From an uncultured Sulfolobales archaeon (lineage in GTDB: Archaea; Thermoproteota; Thermoprotei_A; Sulfolobales; NBVN01), in the NCBI GenBank assembly GCA_938083005.1, contig CALKCU010000014.1, positions 1-49,073 on the forward strand: a DNA stretch of 49,073 bases, given 5' to 3'. The notes under the pieces were generated by a model. That model had not been told where the DNA came from, did not search any database, and worked only from the letters and a program-made list of their open reading frames with translations. Position numbers and translations under genes: made by a program. Shown in pieces: positions 3 through 28,070 of this stretch (positions are counted from its first letter, which is position 1; the number at the start of each line of letters is the position of its first letter).

Positions 3-935
3 CCCCCGCTAGAGCTGGTCGGCGGGTACCTGGGGATAGTGTTCGTGGCGAGCGTCATGTATGGCGGGAGTTGCCGCTCGGAGGCCTCCGGAGTGGAGCT
101 GAGGGCCTACGTGACTTACCATCCAACTAGGGACATGACGAGGCTCGAGGCTAAAAGACGCGAGAGGGAGAGTGCCATGGAGGTTCTGAAGAGAAAGGAT
201 AGGGGTGAAGCGCTCTTCGACGTCCTGGTCCTGGACGGGGAGGTAGTTCCGAGACTCTCGCCGAGGATACTCTACGGAGAGAGCAAGGAGGCCGAGATTG
301 CTAAAGAGATAGTAAATCTCACGGACGTCATGGTCCTCCTGGCCGAGAAGACGAGGACCCCCGTGGTAGGGGTGCTGAAGAGGAGCTACTCTAAGGACGC
401 GCTAGCCGTGCTGGGACGCTTCATCGAGGTCGACCTCAGCGACAGGGCCTTCATGACGTACGTCCTGGAGCCGGGGGAGTTCACGGTCGTCGGGGACTAC
501 CGGACCATAGCCCGGGCCTACGAGGGGCTGGTCCGCGAGTACGGTGAGGCGTTCCCCCGGGAGGTCTCGCCCGCTAAGTATAGGCTGGCCTGGCTTAGGT
601 GGATGCTTAGAAACCTGAACGCCGCCGGCAGGATGAGGATGGCCCTCTACAGGCCGCGCGCGGGCTTCATCAGCACGGCGGTCAAGGTGGAGTACGACGC
701 GGCCGGGCTTAGCGATGAGGAGCTCATCTCCTCCGCGGCCTCCGTGAGTGAGGCGACCGGTTTCCCCGCGCCGGTCGACTACGCCGACGCGCTGTCCCAG
801 ATATCGGGTGACGCTAGGTTCACGGTCTACCAGCTGGTGCTTCAGAGGATAGGCGAGAGGAACCCGGAGGTCGCGGAGAAGCTGTTCACGCTCGCGAACC
901 CTCAGAAGCTAGGATCCATCGGTCTCAGGACGTAG
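3..935 (+). CDS. nurA: NurA 5'-3' nuclease, 5' end cut off by window
   Basis: NurA is a Mn-dependent nuclease that works with the HerA helicase and Mre11-Rad50 in resecting DNA double-strand breaks. The frame is open to the left edge: the codons before the first GTG (39) read PPLELVGGYLGI and run into VFVASVMYGG, as inside NurA proteins, so the gene starts upstream. Visible family marks are VLVLDGEVV (about residues 60-70 after the GTG), the GVLKRSYSKD motif, and the C-terminal alpha/beta part with FTVYQLVLQRIGERNP. The first catalytic DGS aspartate motif should lie outside the window. The gene ends just before a convergent gene at 941. herA, mre11 and rad50 are expected to the left but cannot be seen. 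Family call is fairly sure; the N-terminus is unknown. Confidence 0.8.
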   Translation, partial: PPLELVGGYLGIVFVASVMYGGSCRSEASGVELRAYVTYHPTRDMTRLEAKRRERESAMEVLKRKDRGEALFDVLVLDGEVVPRLSPRILYGESKEAEIAKEIVNLTDVMVLLAEKTRTPVVGVLKRSYSKDALAVLGRFIEVDLSDRAFMTYVLEPGEFTVVGDYRTIARAYEGLVREYGEAFPREVSPAKYRLAWLRWMLRNLNAAGRMRMALYRPRAGFISTAVKVEYDAAGLSDEELISSAASVSEATGFPAPVDYADALSQISGDARFTVYQLVLQRIGERNPEVAEKLFTLANPQKLGSIGLRT

Positions 936-940
936 GGTCC

Positions 941-2119
941 TCAGCGGCACAGCCTGTAGTACCTGACCTTACGTCCTCCCCTGGACCTTACCTCGCTGTA
1001 GATCTCGCCCCTCCTCTCCATAGCCTCCAGCAGCTTGTACGTTCCGCGGAGCGTGTAGACGGGAAGCCTCTTCCATATCTCGTACGCCGTGGCCTCTCCG
1101 CTGCTCCCGAGTATGCGGACGATCTCCCTGCGCAGACCTACGTTTCCCGATCTCCCGCTCAAGGGGGCCCTGAAGCCTATGGTGACTATAGCTACCGAGC
1201 TACCCAAGCTCTCGGCTACGGTAAAGGCGGAGGCGGAGAGGGGCTTCGTCGTCACGCCCCTTCTCCACAGCCTCACGAGAGACTCCAGAACCTCTCCCCC
1301 GTCCACCTCAACTATTCTGACAGACCTAGCGAGATCGAGGACGCGGGGTCTTTCGGCGCCCTTGACCGAGGCGGCCACCACCTCGTAGTGAGGCTCCGCA
1401 CCGGCCTCCTCAAGGTCCCCGAACCCCTTCCAGATGGAGTAGGCGAGGAGCCCCGTCCTCGCGGGGACCACGACCCTCTCCACTCCTAGCCTCCTCTCGT
1501 ATATCTCGAAGGCTATCGTCTTCAGCCCCTCCACGGTGAGCGGGTTTAGGTAGCCGAGGTGGATGGAGTCCGGGGAGCCTTCTCCGCAGGTCAAGCGCGC
1601 GCTCCTCGCCCTGATCAGGGAGGCTACGTCCGAGTAGTCCAGGGAGAGGGGGTCGTCCACCACCACCTCGACGGTCGAAATCCCGTCGAGGTAGTGGACG
1701 AGGGAGTTAGAGAAGTCCTCTTCGAACCTCGTCCTAACCCCCGGGATGCCTCTGGAGAGCACGTAGCTCGCGATAACCGAGGAGGCCCTGTCCGAGTACG
1801 TGCCCGTGGGGTTCCGCTGCTCGTTCTTGATGAGCACGCTCTCGAGCCTGCTCACCGGGGTCAGCCCCTCTCCCTTGGAGACCACGCTCTCCAGCTTAGG
1901 GAGGAGGGATCTATACCTCCAGATTCCTGGCCCCCTCTTATCGATGCTGAACCTGCCGTCGGGATACCTGAAGACCGTGGGCCCTCCGCAGCTGGGGCAA
2001 GTGAAGACCTCCCCGTCGTACACTCTCCCGCAACTGGAGCAGACGAGCAGAGTCGAGGGTCCTTCCCTACCCAAGCCTGGGCTCCGCCACCCCGAGCGTG
2101 CGGTGGAAAATATCGTCAC
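941..2119 (-). CDS. threonine synthase-like protein, PLP lysine lost, with C-terminal winged helix
   Basis: The first half looks like threonine synthase (fold type II PLP enzyme): an N-terminal zinc ribbon (CSSCG, then CPSCGG) followed by the family loop NPTGTYSDRASS. In true ThrC this reads NPTGSFKDR, with the lysine bound to PLP; here codon 109 (1793-1795) is TCG, serine. The glycine-rich phosphate loop is also eroded (VVVPARTGLLAYSIWKGFGD). The last ~65 residues (REIVRILGSSGEATAYEIW to the end) form a predicted winged helix, which ThrC lacks. I infer a non-catalytic sensor or regulator, perhaps of amino-acid metabolism. The GTG at 2119 is the longest start; a TTG at 2074 is equally possible because GATATTTTCC at 2105-2114 could be the promoter box. 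It is divergent from the aldehyde oxidoreductase gene, with a long inverted repeat between them. Confidence 0.7.
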   Translation of the reverse strand: MTIFSTARSGWRSPGLGREGPSTLLVCSSCGRVYDGEVFTCPSCGGPTVFRYPDGRFSIDKRGPGIWRYRSLLPKLESVVSKGEGLTPVSRLESVLIKNEQRNPTGTYSDRASSVIASYVLSRGIPGVRTRFEEDFSNSLVHYLDGISTVEVVVDDPLSLDYSDVASLIRARSARLTCGEGSPDSIHLGYLNPLTVEGLKTIAFEIYERRLGVERVVVPARTGLLAYSIWKGFGDLEEAGAEPHYEVVAASVKGAERPRVLDLARSVRIVEVDGGEVLESLVRLWRRGVTTKPLSASAFTVAESLGSSVAIVTIGFRAPLSGRSGNVGLRREIVRILGSSGEATAYEIWKRLPVYTLRGTYKLLEAMERRGEIYSEVRSRGGRKVRYYRLCR

Positions 2120-2293
2120 GGCCTGACGCGTCGTTGCGGGTCAGCTCTGCCCCCATTACGCTGGACTCTCTCCCCTCTATCATGGAGAGGCCCTCGAGGC
2201 GAGGGGGCCCGTGTTTACCCACATTAACTAGAAAGACGCGCCGCTTTCTTTGGGAGCCTTCAACTCCCCAGTCGCGTACGTCAAGCTCGACGG

Positions 2294-2326
2294 TAATACG
2301 CTTTAACGGCGTTAAAAGCAGTATTA
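2294..2326. promoter_or_regulatory. long imperfect inverted repeat in divergent promoter region
   Basis: Left arm TAATAC-GC-TTTAACG (2294-2308) faces right arm CGTTAAA-a-GC-a-GTATTA (2310-2326). All 15 left-arm bases pair, with two extra A bases in the right arm. It sits in the 355-base gap between the ThrC-like/winged-helix gene and the aldehyde oxidoreductase gene. A second AT-rich box (GCTTTATACC, 2338-2347) follows. It could be an operator; the ligand protein is unknown. Confidence 0.5.
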
Positions 2327-2442
2327 CTTGCGACGTTGCTTTATACCGCTGTATCACGTAATACCTAATGTCGTCTCCACCTTGGAGCAGACCTGTTCTC
2401 ATCGAGAATTACGTTGCCCGATCGTACCAGATCTTCGAGACT

Positions 2443-2474: not shown

Positions 2475-4382
2475 GTGGTATCTCTGCCTCCTCAGAGGCT
2501 CTACGGCTACACAGGGAGGATTCTCGAGATAGACCTCACGCATAAGAAGGCCATCAAGATCGAGACGCCCAGGGAGCTCGCTCGCGACTTCATCGGGGCC
2601 AGGGGCTTCGGAGCCAAGATCCTGTGGGACAGGATGAAACCCGGTACCGACCCCCTGTCCCCCGAGAGCGTCATGGTCGTCTCGTGGAGCCCCTTCACGG
2701 GCACCTCGGCCCAAAGCTTCCACAAGGTATTCGTCATGTTCAAGTCCCCGCTGACCGGTGCGTACTTCAGGTCCGTCGGCGGGGGCTTCTTCGCTGCCGA
2801 GGCCAAGTTCGCGGGCTACGACGCGATAGTGATAACCGGGAGAGCTGAGAAGCCCACCTACGTATGGATACGCGACGACGAGGTCGAGTTCAGGGACGCT
2901 ACGCACATGTGGGGAGCCACGGTCGATGGCGCTGTCGAGATGATAAGGGACGAGACCGATAAAGAGGCGAGGGCGCTAGCCATAGGTCCAGGCGGAGAGA
3001 GGCTGGTGAAGATAGCCTGCGTCGTGACCGACGACTACAGGACTCCCGGTAGAGGGGGTAGCGGGGCCATCTGGGGCGCCAAGAACCTCAAGGCGATCGC
3101 TGTCAGGGGCACCAAGAGGCCCGAGCTCTTCAAGCCGGACGAGTTCGGAGAGCTCGTTAGAGAGCAGGTCGAGGTGTTCAAGAAGAGCCCACTCCTCGAC
3201 CCGTTCCAGAGGCTCGGCACCAACTCTATAGTGTACCAGTTCTACACTCTCGGCCACCACCCGACCTACAACTTCAAGAACATCGAGCTCGAGAACGCCG
3301 AGGTCTGGAGGCCCGAGGTCCTGGAGAAGTACATAGTGAAGCACGTAGGCTGCTTCGGCTGCATGATCAGGTGCGGGAAGAGGTGGAAGCTGACCAAAGG
3401 ACCCTTCGCGGGCCTGTACCACGACTTCCCGGAGTACGAGACTCACTGGTCCATGGGTTCAACGTGCGGAGTCACCAACCTGGAGGCCATAGCGTACGCT
3501 AACATGCTCTGCGACAAGTACGGTATCGACACGATATCCGCCGGAAACCTGGTAGGGTTCGCCATGGAGCTCTACGAGAAGGGCATAATATCGGAGAGGG
3601 AGGCGGATGGCCTTAGGCTCAGGTGGGGCGACCCCGACGTACTCGTCGAGCTCGTGAGGAAGATAGCTCTGAGGGAGGGTATAGGCAACGTACTGGCCGA
3701 GGGTGCGGTCAGAGCCGCTGAGATAATCGGCAGGGGCGCTGAGAAGTACGCGATGCACTCGAAGGGCCTAGAGCTGCCGGCCTACGATCCGAGGGCCGCC
3801 AAGTCCCACGGGCTGAGCTACGCTACGTCCAACATAGGGGGTAGCCACATGATTGGATGGAACAAGTACGAGATCCTGGGAATGCCGGAGAAGGTCGACC
3901 CGCTGACCGTTGAGGGTAAGGGAGAGCTGACGAAGAGGGTCCAGGACCAGATAGCGGCCTACGAGGCAGCTGGCTGGTGCGCCTTCGCCGAGCTCGTCCA
4001 GACAGCCGGCTACGGGAGCGTGGAGAAGACCATGGACTGGATGGCCAGGGCCCTCTACGCCGCCACGGGCGTAGAGGAGTTCAAGGACCCGAAGCACATC
4101 TGGCTAGTCGGTGAGAGGGTATACAACCTAGAGAGGGCCTTCAACGTCCGCGAGGGCTACACCAGGAAGGACGACTGGCTACCCGAGAGGTTCCTCAGGG
4201 AACCGTTCCCGAGGGCCCCCGCGAAGGGACAGATATTCGAGCTCGACAGGCTACTCGACGACTACTACACCGTTAGAGGCTGGGACTTGAAGACCGGCAC
4301 ACCGACGAGGAAGAAGCTCGAGGAGCTGGGGCTCAAGGAGGTAGCAGACGAGCTCGAGAGACTGGGGAAGCTCCCAGCTTAA
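2475..4382 (+). CDS. tungsten-containing aldehyde:ferredoxin oxidoreductase family
   Basis: Oxidises aldehydes to acids and passes the electrons to ferredoxin, using a tungstopterin and one [4Fe-4S] cluster; cytoplasmic. At 635 residues it has the family's normal length. The N-terminal beta-rich domain is clear (LYGYTGRILEIDLT, GARGFGAKILWD). Cluster ligands are C293-x2-C296-x3-C300 (GCFGCMIRC) and C502 (AAGWCAF), matching the CX2CX3C...C pattern of P. furiosus AOR. Start chosen at the GTG about 28 bases after a TATA box. A MoaD/ThiS-like gene follows 78 bases later, fitting pterin cofactor supply. Which subfamily (AOR, FOR, GAPOR, WOR) it belongs to cannot be decided by eye; with peptide-degrading genes nearby, aldehydes from 2-keto acids are a reasonable substrate guess. 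Confidence 0.9.
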   Translation: MVSLPPQRLYGYTGRILEIDLTHKKAIKIETPRELARDFIGARGFGAKILWDRMKPGTDPLSPESVMVVSWSPFTGTSAQSFHKVFVMFKSPLTGAYFRSVGGGFFAAEAKFAGYDAIVITGRAEKPTYVWIRDDEVEFRDATHMWGATVDGAVEMIRDETDKEARALAIGPGGERLVKIACVVTDDYRTPGRGGSGAIWGAKNLKAIAVRGTKRPELFKPDEFGELVREQVEVFKKSPLLDPFQRLGTNSIVYQFYTLGHHPTYNFKNIELENAEVWRPEVLEKYIVKHVGCFGCMIRCGKRWKLTKGPFAGLYHDFPEYETHWSMGSTCGVTNLEAIAYANMLCDKYGIDTISAGNLVGFAMELYEKGIISEREADGLRLRWGDPDVLVELVRKIALREGIGNVLAEGAVRAAEIIGRGAEKYAMHSKGLELPAYDPRAAKSHGLSYATSNIGGSHMIGWNKYEILGMPEKVDPLTVEGKGELTKRVQDQIAAYEAAGWCAFAELVQTAGYGSVEKTMDWMARALYAATGVEEFKDPKHIWLVGERVYNLERAFNVREGYTRKDDWLPERFLREPFPRAPAKGQIFELDRLLDDYYTVRGWDLKTGTPTRKKLEELGLKEVADELERLGKLPA

Positions 4383-24963: not shown

Positions 24964-26325
24964 GTGATCGCAGTCCTGCTCGCCGGTACCATGGCCGCCT
25001 ACCTAGCTCTGACGAGGGTGAGCGGGCCGACCGAGGTCCAGCCCGCGAAAGAGGTCGTTCTCACGGTCGTCACTAGGCTTGCGCCGGACGAGGGGGAGGC
25101 TCTGCGGAGCAGGTTCCTGAGCAGCAGCGTGGCTGCCGAGTACAACATAAAGGACGTGGTGTTCTTGAAGGAGGACGTAGCGAAGTGGTCCATATACGCC
25201 GAAGAGGGCAGGGCCGACGTCTTCTTCATCGGCGGCTACGCTCTCTACAGAGACCTCTGCGAAAGGGGCCACCTGAGGCCCATAGCCGACGAGGGGCTCC
25301 TCAGGAGGGTCTCCGAGCTCGGCGCCTACGCCTACAGGCTCCCGAACGGGAGCGTCTGCTTCATCGCCGTGTCCAGGACGGTCTTCAGCTACACGGTCAA
25401 CCGGGACTTCCTCGACAAGTACGGGCTCGAGCCCCCGAAGACCTGGGGAGACATGTTCTCGGCCAGCTACTCGACCCCCCTACTCTACGGAGAGAGCTTG
25501 GTGTCCTTCCCGAGGCCCACGAAGAGCACTACGGCTGCCAGGACTATCCAGCTAGTGCTACAGAAGTACGGCTGGAACGAGGGCTGGGTCCTCCTCTCGG
25601 TGGTCGGGGCCAACTCGTACATAGTGGAGAGCTCGGAGAAGGCCAGGGACGACGTCGCGCTCGGAGTAGCGGGCCTGGCCCCGACGGTCCTCGTCTACGG
25701 TATTAGGGCCGAGGAGCTGAGCGGCGGCAGAGCCAGGTTCTACCCGGCGGTGGGAGAGGTCTTGCCGGACTTCTCCCCCGTGGCCGTGGCCAGGAACACG
25801 CGCAACGAGCGGGAGGCCCTGGCGTTCATCGGGTGGCTCCTGAGCCCGGAGGGTCAGAGAGCCCTAGCGGAGCTCTTCTACTACCTGCCCTACGTCAAGC
25901 CGGAGGGGACGGCCCTCGAGAGGGTATACGAGGAACTCGAGGATAACATCTTCGACTACGACCCCGAGGATGCGGCTACGTGGGAGAGGGCCGCGGTATA
26001 CTACTTCGAGGCCGCCATAGCCGACCCCGACGCTAACACGCTCCTGAAGGAGGTCTGGTCTCTGGCGGTGAGCCTCTACAGCAGGGGTGTGCTATCGGAG
26101 ACCGGGCTGCTCGAGGTGGCGCGCAGGCTGGGGAGCCCCCTCCAGGTGAGCATCGACGGGGAGCCCAGGGAGTTCTCCAAGGACTTCGCTGCGGAGGTGA
26201 ACAGGCAGGTCGCAGAGGACCCCGTGTTCAGGTCGAAGTTCTTCGACGCCGTCAGGAGCGCTGCCCTCGCTAGGTACAGAGCCGTCCTGAGCGAGCTGAG
26301 GGAGCTAGGGGGCCAGCCCCGGTGA
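24964..26325 (+). CDS. ABC transporter extracellular solute-binding protein
   Basis: A membrane-anchored binding protein of the iron/thiamine/putrescine type. The N-terminus is a signal anchor (VIAVLLAGTMAAYLAL) followed by the two-lobed binding domain (VVTRLAPDEGEALRSRF, GRADVFFIGGYALYRDL, VSRTVFSYTVNRDFLDKYGL, PPKTWGDMFSASY, SPEGQRALAELFYYLPYVK). The GTG at 24964 leaves no charged residues before the helix; the frame is open back to a stop at 24928, and a non-standard start such as the CTG at 24952 would add the basic residues usually found there. Ligand unknown. Overlaps the permease gene by four bases. Confidence 0.75.
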   Translation: MIAVLLAGTMAAYLALTRVSGPTEVQPAKEVVLTVVTRLAPDEGEALRSRFLSSSVAAEYNIKDVVFLKEDVAKWSIYAEEGRADVFFIGGYALYRDLCERGHLRPIADEGLLRRVSELGAYAYRLPNGSVCFIAVSRTVFSYTVNRDFLDKYGLEPPKTWGDMFSASYSTPLLYGESLVSFPRPTKSTTAARTIQLVLQKYGWNEGWVLLSVVGANSYIVESSEKARDDVALGVAGLAPTVLVYGIRAEELSGGRARFYPAVGEVLPDFSPVAVARNTRNEREALAFIGWLLSPEGQRALAELFYYLPYVKPEGTALERVYEELEDNIFDYDPEDAATWERAAVYYFEAAIADPDANTLLKEVWSLAVSLYSRGVLSETGLLEVARRLGSPLQVSIDGEPREFSKDFAAEVNRQVAEDPVFRSKFFDAVRSAALARYRAVLSELRELGGQPR

Positions 26326-28070
26326 CGGCGGGTCGAGCGAGAGCCCTGGCCCTATTTCCGATACTCTTCGTGGTAGTGTTCCTGCTGGTCCCACCAGCGT
26401 CCCTGGTGGGGGTCCTCGCGAAAGACCCCCTCGGCGGCCTCGGGTGGCTGCTTAACGCGAAGATACCGCCCGATGGGGAGGTCTTCAGGGTCTACGAGGT
26501 CAGGGGCACCAGGATAGTATCGTTCACGGGTCTCGACTTCGGGCCCGTCCTCAACACCCTCCTCCTGGCCTCGACCGTCTCCCTGACCGCAACGCTCCTC
26601 GGCCTCTTCTCGGCAGTGTCCTGCCTCGGGCTCAGGGGCAGGCCCAGGCTCCTCGTAGGCTACGCACTGCCCCTCCTGGCGTCCCTCCCGACACCCTTCA
26701 TCTCGGCGTACGCCATGACCCACCTCTTCCACAGGGAGTTCGGTCTGCTAAACGTAGTCCTGGAGAGGCTGCTGGGGTTCAGGGTGGCTCTCGAGGGCAT
26801 CATCGGCGTCCTTGTCTACCAGCTCCTCAGCTTCCTCCCCCTCTCGCATCTCATCGTGATGAGCTATATAGACCTCGTGGACAGGAGCCTGATAGAGGCC
26901 GCCAGCAACCTGGGCGCCAGGGGACTCGAGGTACTCAGGAGCATAGTCGTTCCGCTGGCGAGGCCCGCCCTCGTCGTCAGCGGGACGCTCACCTTCGTCC
27001 TCTCGGCGGAGGACCTCTCGGGGCCGGCCGCGTTCAGCAGGTACAACTCCGCCAGGAACCTGATGGCCTACGTGGCATACTACGACTTCGTGTCGGAGTA
27101 CGGGTTCACGGTGAGCCTCAGGTCGGTCGCGTACGTGCTGGCCCTCTCGCTCGCGGCATCGGCGGTATTCGCGGCCCTCTGGAGGAACCTGAGGACCTAC
27201 AGGTACCCGGTGGTCTCAACGAAGGCGGTTTACGTAGAAGCGGGGATCCCCGGACTGATCATGGCTGCCGCGGCCACGGCCCTCCTCGCCTTCTCCCTCC
27301 TGCCCAAGGCGTTGGTCCTGGCGTACTCCGTGACCGAGGGGTGGTACGGGTACTACCTCCCCAGGGGCCTCACCCTGGGCAACTACCTGGCGGTGCTCGC
27401 GACTCCCTACTACTCGCGCGCGCTCGCGAACACGGTGGTCTACAGCGTCCTGTCGGTGCTCCTCGTGATGCTCGTCTCCTCCCTCGCGGCCTACGCGAGC
27501 CTCAGGCTCAGCTCGAGGCTCTCCCCCGTAGTCGAGGCCCTGACGGCCCTGCCTCTGGTGATCCCCGGCATAGCGGTCGGGATAGGGTACTTCTCGGTGT
27601 TCCACGAGGTCTGCAAGAGCGTGCCCCCCCTAGACCCGATGGTGAACCCGGCCCCCTACCTAGTCCTCGCCTACGCGGCCAGGAGGCTGACCTACGCCGC
27701 GAGGCCCCTCTCCGCAGCCCTCCAGAAGGTGCCGAAGGACGTCGAGGAGCAGGCCCTCAACCTGGGAGCGGGTCACGCGCTCGTGCTGAGGACGGTCACT
27801 CTGCCCCTAGTCTCGAGCGCCTTCCTGGTCGCCGCTGCCCTGGCTTCGCTGCACACCTCCACCGAGTTCAGCGTCTCCCTCGTGCTCGCCGGGGGCTACG
27901 GCGTATCAGCGTCCCACCCGGCACCGGCCATCCCGGTGATCGTGAACATGTTGACCTACAACCCGGCCTCGATACACGTGGCCTCGGCACTGCTGGTGCT
28001 CTCCTCGGCGATCTCCGTCGCGAGCTCTGTGGTCTTGGCCGCGGCCGTGCTCAGGCTGCTCCGCGCATGA
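26322..28070 (+). CDS. ABC transporter permease, two fused domains
   Basis: 582 residues with about twelve membrane helices and two copies of the EAA loop that contacts the ATPase: EAASNLGARGLEVLRSIVVP (about residues 190-209) and EQALNLGAGHALVLRTVTLP (about 477-496). This is the fused layout of ThiP/FbpB-type importers. GTGA overlap with the binding-protein gene and ATGA overlap with the small gene behind it show a three-gene operon. No ATPase gene is in the window, so it is encoded elsewhere or shared. Confidence 0.85.
   Translation: MTAGRARALALFPILFVVVFLLVPPASLVGVLAKDPLGGLGWLLNAKIPPDGEVFRVYEVRGTRIVSFTGLDFGPVLNTLLLASTVSLTATLLGLFSAVSCLGLRGRPRLLVGYALPLLASLPTPFISAYAMTHLFHREFGLLNVVLERLLGFRVALEGIIGVLVYQLLSFLPLSHLIVMSYIDLVDRSLIEAASNLGARGLEVLRSIVVPLARPALVVSGTLTFVLSAEDLSGPAAFSRYNSARNLMAYVAYYDFVSEYGFTVSLRSVAYVLALSLAASAVFAALWRNLRTYRYPVVSTKAVYVEAGIPGLIMAAAATALLAFSLLPKALVLAYSVTEGWYGYYLPRGLTLGNYLAVLATPYYSRALANTVVYSVLSVLLVMLVSSLAAYASLRLSSRLSPVVEALTALPLVIPGIAVGIGYFSVFHEVCKSVPPLDPMVNPAPYLVLAYAARRLTYAARPLSAALQKVPKDVEEQALNLGAGHALVLRTVTLPLVSSAFLVAAALASLHTSTEFSVSLVLAGGYGVSASHPAPAIPVIVNMLTYNPASIHVASALLVLSSAISVASSVVLAAAVLRLLRA

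Follow-up and report, generated by a model that had tools for sequence, protein, structure and literature searches.

The window, by which we mean the whole 49,073-nucleotide stretch of DNA from an uncultured Sulfolobales archaeon analysed here, contains a gene with a GTG start codon whose product combines a zinc ribbon, a threonine synthase (ThrC) core of fold-type II and a C-terminal winged helix (wHTH), in that order. The features of this locus and of an ABC transporter operon elsewhere in the window (24964-28067) are collected in Table 1.

Table 1. Positions of the genes, protein segments and candidate sites discussed in the text (window coordinates)
Feature	Position	Strand	Remarks
NurA-domain nuclease, open at window edge	3..935	+	Pfam NurA; convergent neighbour
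Regulator candidate (ThrC-like, Lys-less, C-terminal winged helix)	941..2119	-	392 aa; proposed B6/PLP regulator
Winged helix, residues 324-392	944..1150	-	AlphaFold topology H-H-H-E-E; PadR/HTH_11 Pfam matches in relatives; profile against solved wHTH
Former Schiff-base loop N103-PTGTYSD-R111	1787..1813	-	Ser109 codon 1793-1795, Lys expected
Zinc ribbon C27-x2-C30 ... C41-x2-C44	1988..2041	-	Cys conservation in 45 relatives
Inverted repeat GTAATAC...TTTAACGGCGTTAAA...GTATTAC	2293..2327	.	35 bp, between regulator and AOR gene
Aldehyde ferredoxin oxidoreductase (AOR)	2475..4382	+	Pfam AFOR; divergent neighbour
Diverged operator-like site GTGATCGTTCCA, then ACAAGG-CTTAAA	24881..24892	+	Upstream of ABC binding-protein gene
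ABC solute-binding protein (SBP_bac_8/6)	24964..26322	+	Candidate regulon member, candidate B6 importer
ABC permease, BPD_transp_1	26322..28067	+	Same operon as binding protein

A threonine synthase homologue without its catalytic lysine

Database comparisons of the window protein revealed kinship with threonine synthases at a considerable distance. PALP was the sole Pfam family above cut-off (E=6e-14), and the top NCBIfam models were threonine synthases, all far under cut-off, with 25 bits against a cut-off of 167.1 for TIGR00260, the curated ThrC equivalog, and 103 bits against 421 for NF004170. An AlphaFold2 model built from a 45-sequence alignment reached a mean pLDDT of 89.9, the low-confidence parts being the N-terminus (residues 1-18) and a linker (320-325). 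Searched against the PDB with Foldseek, the model had its best matches among threonine synthases (2c2b from Arabidopsis, E=3e-15, and those of Thermus, Aquifex and Bacillus), followed by other fold-type II PLP enzymes, so that Pfam and structure place the core in the same fold. The zinc ribbon is also kept, with C27, C41 and C44 invariant and C30 nearly invariant in 45 relatives, in agreement with the first-pass annotation of this DNA, which had proposed a retained ribbon and ThrC fold. Its third structural claim, a winged helix at the C-terminus, was borne out as well: Pfam detected no wHTH in the window protein itself, and the model predicts a helix-helix-helix-strand-strand wHTH at about residues 324-390, relatives match PadR (1e-12 in L112) or HTH_11/PadR, and the C-terminal profile weakly resembles solved winged-helix regulators, for example PadR-type proteins and PH1932.

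Close homologues (the short family), found both within the window's order and outside it, comprised 14 full-length proteins in 41 genomes and about 45 proteins in GTDB contigs labelled as Sulfolobales, Desulfurococcales, Acidilobaceae, Fervidicoccus, Thermoproteus, Caldivirga and unclassified Thermoproteota. The same architecture is seen in a sister group of longer proteins (about 440-500 aa). In an unrooted tree the short family forms one clade with support of 100, and a single branch with support of 82 sets off the active ThrC proteins.

As had been noticed from the sequence, the loop NPTGTYSDR of the window protein carries Ser109 where ThrC (NPTGSFKDR) has the lysine that forms the Schiff base. 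Serine is not fixed at this position: across 40 short and 20 long homologues the residue there can be A, S, V, I, L, T, Y, M or F, and lysine is always absent. All 20 members of NF004170 examined have arginine, giving no lysine in any of 80 wHTH-fused homologues, in contrast to 10 of 10 true ThrC proteins of the same order. This rules out a sequencing error, because lysine never occurs at this position in the 60 homologues or the 20 NF004170 members, and the loss of the catalytic lysine is, judging by these alignments, ancient and permanent. By the lysine test the window protein is thus not a threonine synthase, and a true ThrC with NPTGSFKDR is encoded at C15 of the window's genome.

The remainder of the old active site presents a mixed picture. 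In the short family the ThrC phosphate loop PVGNGGN is eroded to P-A-R/E-T-G-L-L, leaving a single glycine, whereas in the longer sister family the loop is still glycine-rich and largely kept; the suggestion that the phosphate-binding glycines have decayed therefore holds for the short family and not for its sister. Other pocket residues are conserved, with E84, T87, K98, E100, N103, D110 and R111 invariant in all 60 short and long members, and the loops EGxTP and NPTG(S/T)(F/Y)xDR, apart from the lysine, are held in common with ThrC. In ThrC a threonine contacts the PLP ring nitrogen and an asparagine contacts O3'; among the same 60 proteins the former position is T or S in 59 and the latter is Asp in 49. 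The pocket glutamate of EPxSA is replaced in the short family by lysine (33/40; Lys292 in the window protein) or arginine. Outside the lysine and the phosphate loop, most pocket residues are thus conserved to the same degree as in active enzymes, as would be expected if the binding pocket had been retained, and PLP binding by the short family is not certain because its phosphate loop is eroded.

Linkage to pdxST and a palindrome in pdxS promoters

Clustering of the neighbour genes around 48 family loci revealed a recurrent link to vitamin B6 synthesis. PdxT and PdxS, identified by the Pfam families SNO and SOR_SNZ, are each encoded in 19 of the 48 loci on the same strand as the regulator gene, mostly touching it or each other, usually in the order pdxS-pdxT-regulator and sometimes as regulator-pdxS. 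In the metagenome-assembled genome G009, pdxS (G009:C12:27427-28426) is split into two overlapping frames by an assembly error or a frameshift. A regulon for threonine or homoserine phosphate was considered and rejected, as no threonine-pathway genes are among the recurring neighbours.

In the window and in its nearest relative, the sister genome G006, the adjacency to pdxST appears to have been lost by rearrangement, because the window's NurA/HerA-like/AOR region recurs in the nearest relatives with a pdxST operon (L063, L065 and L067); pdxS is still present elsewhere in the G006 genome. The NurA neighbour, syntenic in L062, L063, L065 and L067, is incidental, and so probably is the AOR neighbour, whose gene directly adjoins the regulator only in the window, G006 and L071 and lies elsewhere kilobases away on the other side, probably by rearrangement. 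Several Thermoproteota members (L088-L099 and L118) have other neighbourhoods without pdxS. Divergent members among them (L088, L090, L092, L094, L095, L098, L099 and L118) adjoin corrinoid-protein-like, acyl-CoA dehydrogenase, ETF-like and MoaA/C/E-like genes, some have an ABC permease gene about 2 kb downstream, and no pdxS was found in those of their genomes that were searched.

In family-bearing genomes the pdxS promoters contain T(A/G)TTGAACGTTCAA, after which come a BRE-like A-N-(T/C)-A-A and an AT-rich stretch resembling a TATA box; the BRE/TATA assignment is our own reading of these promoters. With up to 2 mismatches, an event expected by chance in about 0.7% of such regions, the palindrome TTGAACGTTCAA lies upstream of pdxS in 16 of 17 family-bearing genomes, the exception being L100/G057, which has pdxS without the palindrome. 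In all 10 genomes with pdxS that lack the short family, the best match in the pdxS promoter has at least 4 mismatches (16/17 versus 0/10, Fisher p=1e-6, with genomes that are not independent and no correction for phylogeny). The motif is rare genome-wide, with zero to a few copies, and matches inside coding regions (G000:C16, G048, G007:C2 and others) were counted as chance. Its symmetric variants TTGAAGCTTCAA and TTAAACGTTTAA are as expected of a site for a putative dimer. Sites of the TTGAACGTTCAA type also precede a radical-SAM gene in G031 and a nucleotidyltransferase-like gene in G043. This operator motif and the direct-repeat motif described below were defined after the promoters had been viewed, making their statistics post hoc; the sites at ECF and ABC transporter genes, found after the motifs had been defined, support both.

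The first-pass annotation had instead put forward the inverted repeat at 2294-2326, upstream of the window's own gene, as the operator. This is probably not the case, since only the core TTTAACnCnGTTAAA of the repeat is shared with G006 and the site common to the family is TTGAACGTTCAA, of which the window contains no match with up to 2 mismatches.

Importer genes and the longer sister families

Exact copies of the palindrome were found at genes for ECF-type importers. In G032 and G046, both without pdxS, the palindrome lies 49-55 bp upstream of a gene for an ECF S component, which is followed by an ATPase gene, and G011 has a copy between the regulator gene and an ECF S-component gene. The S component at these sites is PF07155, and its profile had a single significant match in the PDB, 4hzu_S (E=6e-9). 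This is HmpT, whose preferred substrate has been reported as pyridoxamine (PMC4860826). ECF-S and pdxS genes tend to exclude each other (14 genomes with pdxS only, 15 with ECF-S only, 6 with both and 6 with neither; p=0.013, uncorrected for phylogeny).

Among genomes lacking pdxS, the palindrome can also precede an ABC binding-protein gene, as in G004 and G003, and the window encodes a protein 41% identical to the G004 protein whose gene has the palindrome. Upstream of the window's gene, the diverged site GTGATCGTTCCA has 3 mismatches to the consensus, a match that about 5% of promoters would show by chance by our own estimate, and it can be aligned gap-free to the sites in the orthologous promoters of G004 and G003: with respect to the TATA-like element, the window's GTGATCGTTCCACAAGGCTTAA is placed just as TTGAACGTTCAGTAAGGCTTAA is in G004 and ATGAACGTTCCACAAGACTTAA in G003. 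Tentatively, these matches suggest that the ABC system of the window, G003 and G004 may carry B6. No pdxS, ECF-S gene or exact palindrome was found in the window's genome, the assembly of which is 83% complete. We infer that this species uses the regulator on its own ABC importer and probably also on an unassembled pdxST.

The longer Lys-less proteins appear to have comparable targets. Their genes lie directly upstream of ECF-S and EcfA genes in 8 genomes of the window's family and order, and a direct repeat, TAKTGAA-N4-ATABTG, occurs upstream of ECF-S (8 genomes) or pdxS (G023), with 25 genome matches for the pattern against 3 for a reversed control. The half-site TATTGAA is common to this repeat and the short-family palindrome. 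Among the long regulators (L221-L228, L231, L232), many have a divergently oriented NUDIX-hydrolase-like gene beside them, and some a small thioesterase-like gene in the vicinity. In G010:C112 and G018:C93 (L303, L312), which have neither pdxS nor ECF-S, the direct repeat stands at the start of an AIR-synthase-like gene, a possible further regulon member.

Proteins of NF004170 (PRK05638) belong to the same Lys-less sister group as the window protein, sharing the ThrC-like core and C-terminal wHTH and differing in the arginine that replaces the lysine and in the score given above. In a sample of 20 (L272-L291, 18 of them over cut-off), the C-terminal extensions match wHTH families, and 15 of the genes lie directly upstream of an ECF-S/EcfA operon. 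Their promoters contain an inverted repeat, CTTAAAG-N6-ACTTTA, overlapping the TATA box; as CTTAAAG-N6-ACTTTATA it was seen upstream of ECF-S in L272, L274, L276-L280 and L284-L287, a third operator type at the same target. This overlap would favour repression in the NF004170 branch. The "threonine synthase" NF004170 thus appears to be a misnamed branch of Lys-less regulators, and genomes annotated with this label would be assigned an enzyme of the threonine pathway in error.

A candidate regulator of vitamin B6 supply

Loss of the lysine, fusion to a wHTH, linkage to B6 genes, conservation of the operator and the structural relationships found for core and importer lead us to propose, with a probability of about 0.8, that the window protein acts as a one-component transcription regulator that senses a B6 vitamer and controls vitamin B6 synthesis and import in these hyperthermophilic archaea. 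The earlier idea that an inactive enzyme fused to a DNA-binding domain would act as a ligand-sensing transcription factor is thus well supported. Of the ligands offered with it, PLP is favoured by the pdxST operon and by the HmpT-like ECF importers that share the palindrome, and by the pocket; threonine and homoserine phosphate are not. In the proposed mechanism, a duplicated threonine synthase would have lost its PLP-anchoring lysine, and with it the ability to catalyse, and gained a C-terminal wHTH. The old active site would now sense a B6 vitamer through reversible binding, PLP being the most likely ligand. A putative dimer would bind T(A/G)TTGAACGTTCAA next to the BRE/TATA region of pdxST, or of a B6 importer of ECF or ABC type in genomes without pdxST, tuning transcription to the PLP level. 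We lean slightly towards PLP as a co-repressor, because the sites abut or overlap BRE/TATA. The opposite sign, with the apo form activating, seems somewhat less probable and is raised by analogy, because bacterial PdxR works as an apo-activator for which PLP is the anti-activator (PMC5320631).

Several other readings were weighed against a B6-sensing regulator. The protein could regulate B6 genes while sensing an amino acid or phosphate ester (threonine, O-phosphohomoserine or serine) rather than PLP, in keeping with the (near-)invariant pocket elements EGxTP and NPT(G)xYxDR beside an eroded PLP phosphate loop. We regard this as improbable, given that the linkage is to B6 synthesis and import, that threonine-pathway genes are missing from the recurring neighbours and that the sister family has kept the loop. 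It is rather more doubtful that another, unlinked regulator binds the palindrome and that the ThrC-like protein is simply co-regulated: the pairing of wHTH and operator is drawn from sequence, but the presence of the site follows that of the protein, and the sister families have distinct operator types in front of the same targets.

Two readings in which the protein would not regulate transcription were judged very unlikely. Membership in a pdxST operon would equally be expected of a pseudoenzyme that binds PLP to buffer or carry it, with a wHTH that is structural or serves protein contacts; the palindrome, however, tracks the protein rather than pdxST alone and also marks importers, which calls for a DNA-binding partner. 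There is similarly little chance that the protein is still a PLP enzyme, working through another lysine or none. Candidates would be K292, in place of the pocket glutamate, and the invariant K98 and K200 nearby in sequence; however, K98 and K200 are just as invariant in active ThrC and so are not replacements, K292, the only core lysine specific to the short family, is absent from the sister family, and the genome has a true ThrC.

A B6-sensing regulator of this kind resembles known vitamin regulators in some respects. RbkR, the archaeal riboflavin regulator, likewise fuses a wHTH to a vitamin-related enzyme domain and differs in that this is an active CTP-dependent riboflavin kinase, serving another vitamin and having another fold. 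With bacterial PdxR/MocR the family shares a sensor derived from a PLP enzyme, a wHTH, association with pdxST or with genes for B6 salvage and transport, and conserved palindromic or direct-repeat operators (PMC5320631). MocR proteins, which are stated to be absent from Archaea (PMC5320631), have a fold-type I aminotransferase domain and an N-terminal GntR wHTH, neither of which is present in the window protein, with its fold-type II core and C-terminal wHTH. The best reading of these comparisons is an archaeal PLP/B6 regulator analogous to, and not homologous with, bacterial PdxR. It is likely that in Thermoproteota fold-type II ThrC gave rise to a PLP sensor for pdxST and B6 importers, a second and independent invention of the PdxR/MocR kind.

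A search of the open-access literature, outside of which most subscription journals lie, found neither a ThrC-like wHTH regulator nor an archaeal B6 regulator, and PMC9997740 omits regulators, naming only the bacterial PdxR type. The family would illustrate how an enzyme can become a sensor through the loss of a single catalytic residue, and predicts that the archaeal ECF S component PF07155, and perhaps also the ABC system, imports B6. For archaeal B6 supply, for which as far as we found no regulator has been described, it would provide a candidate regulator together with an operator and target genes.
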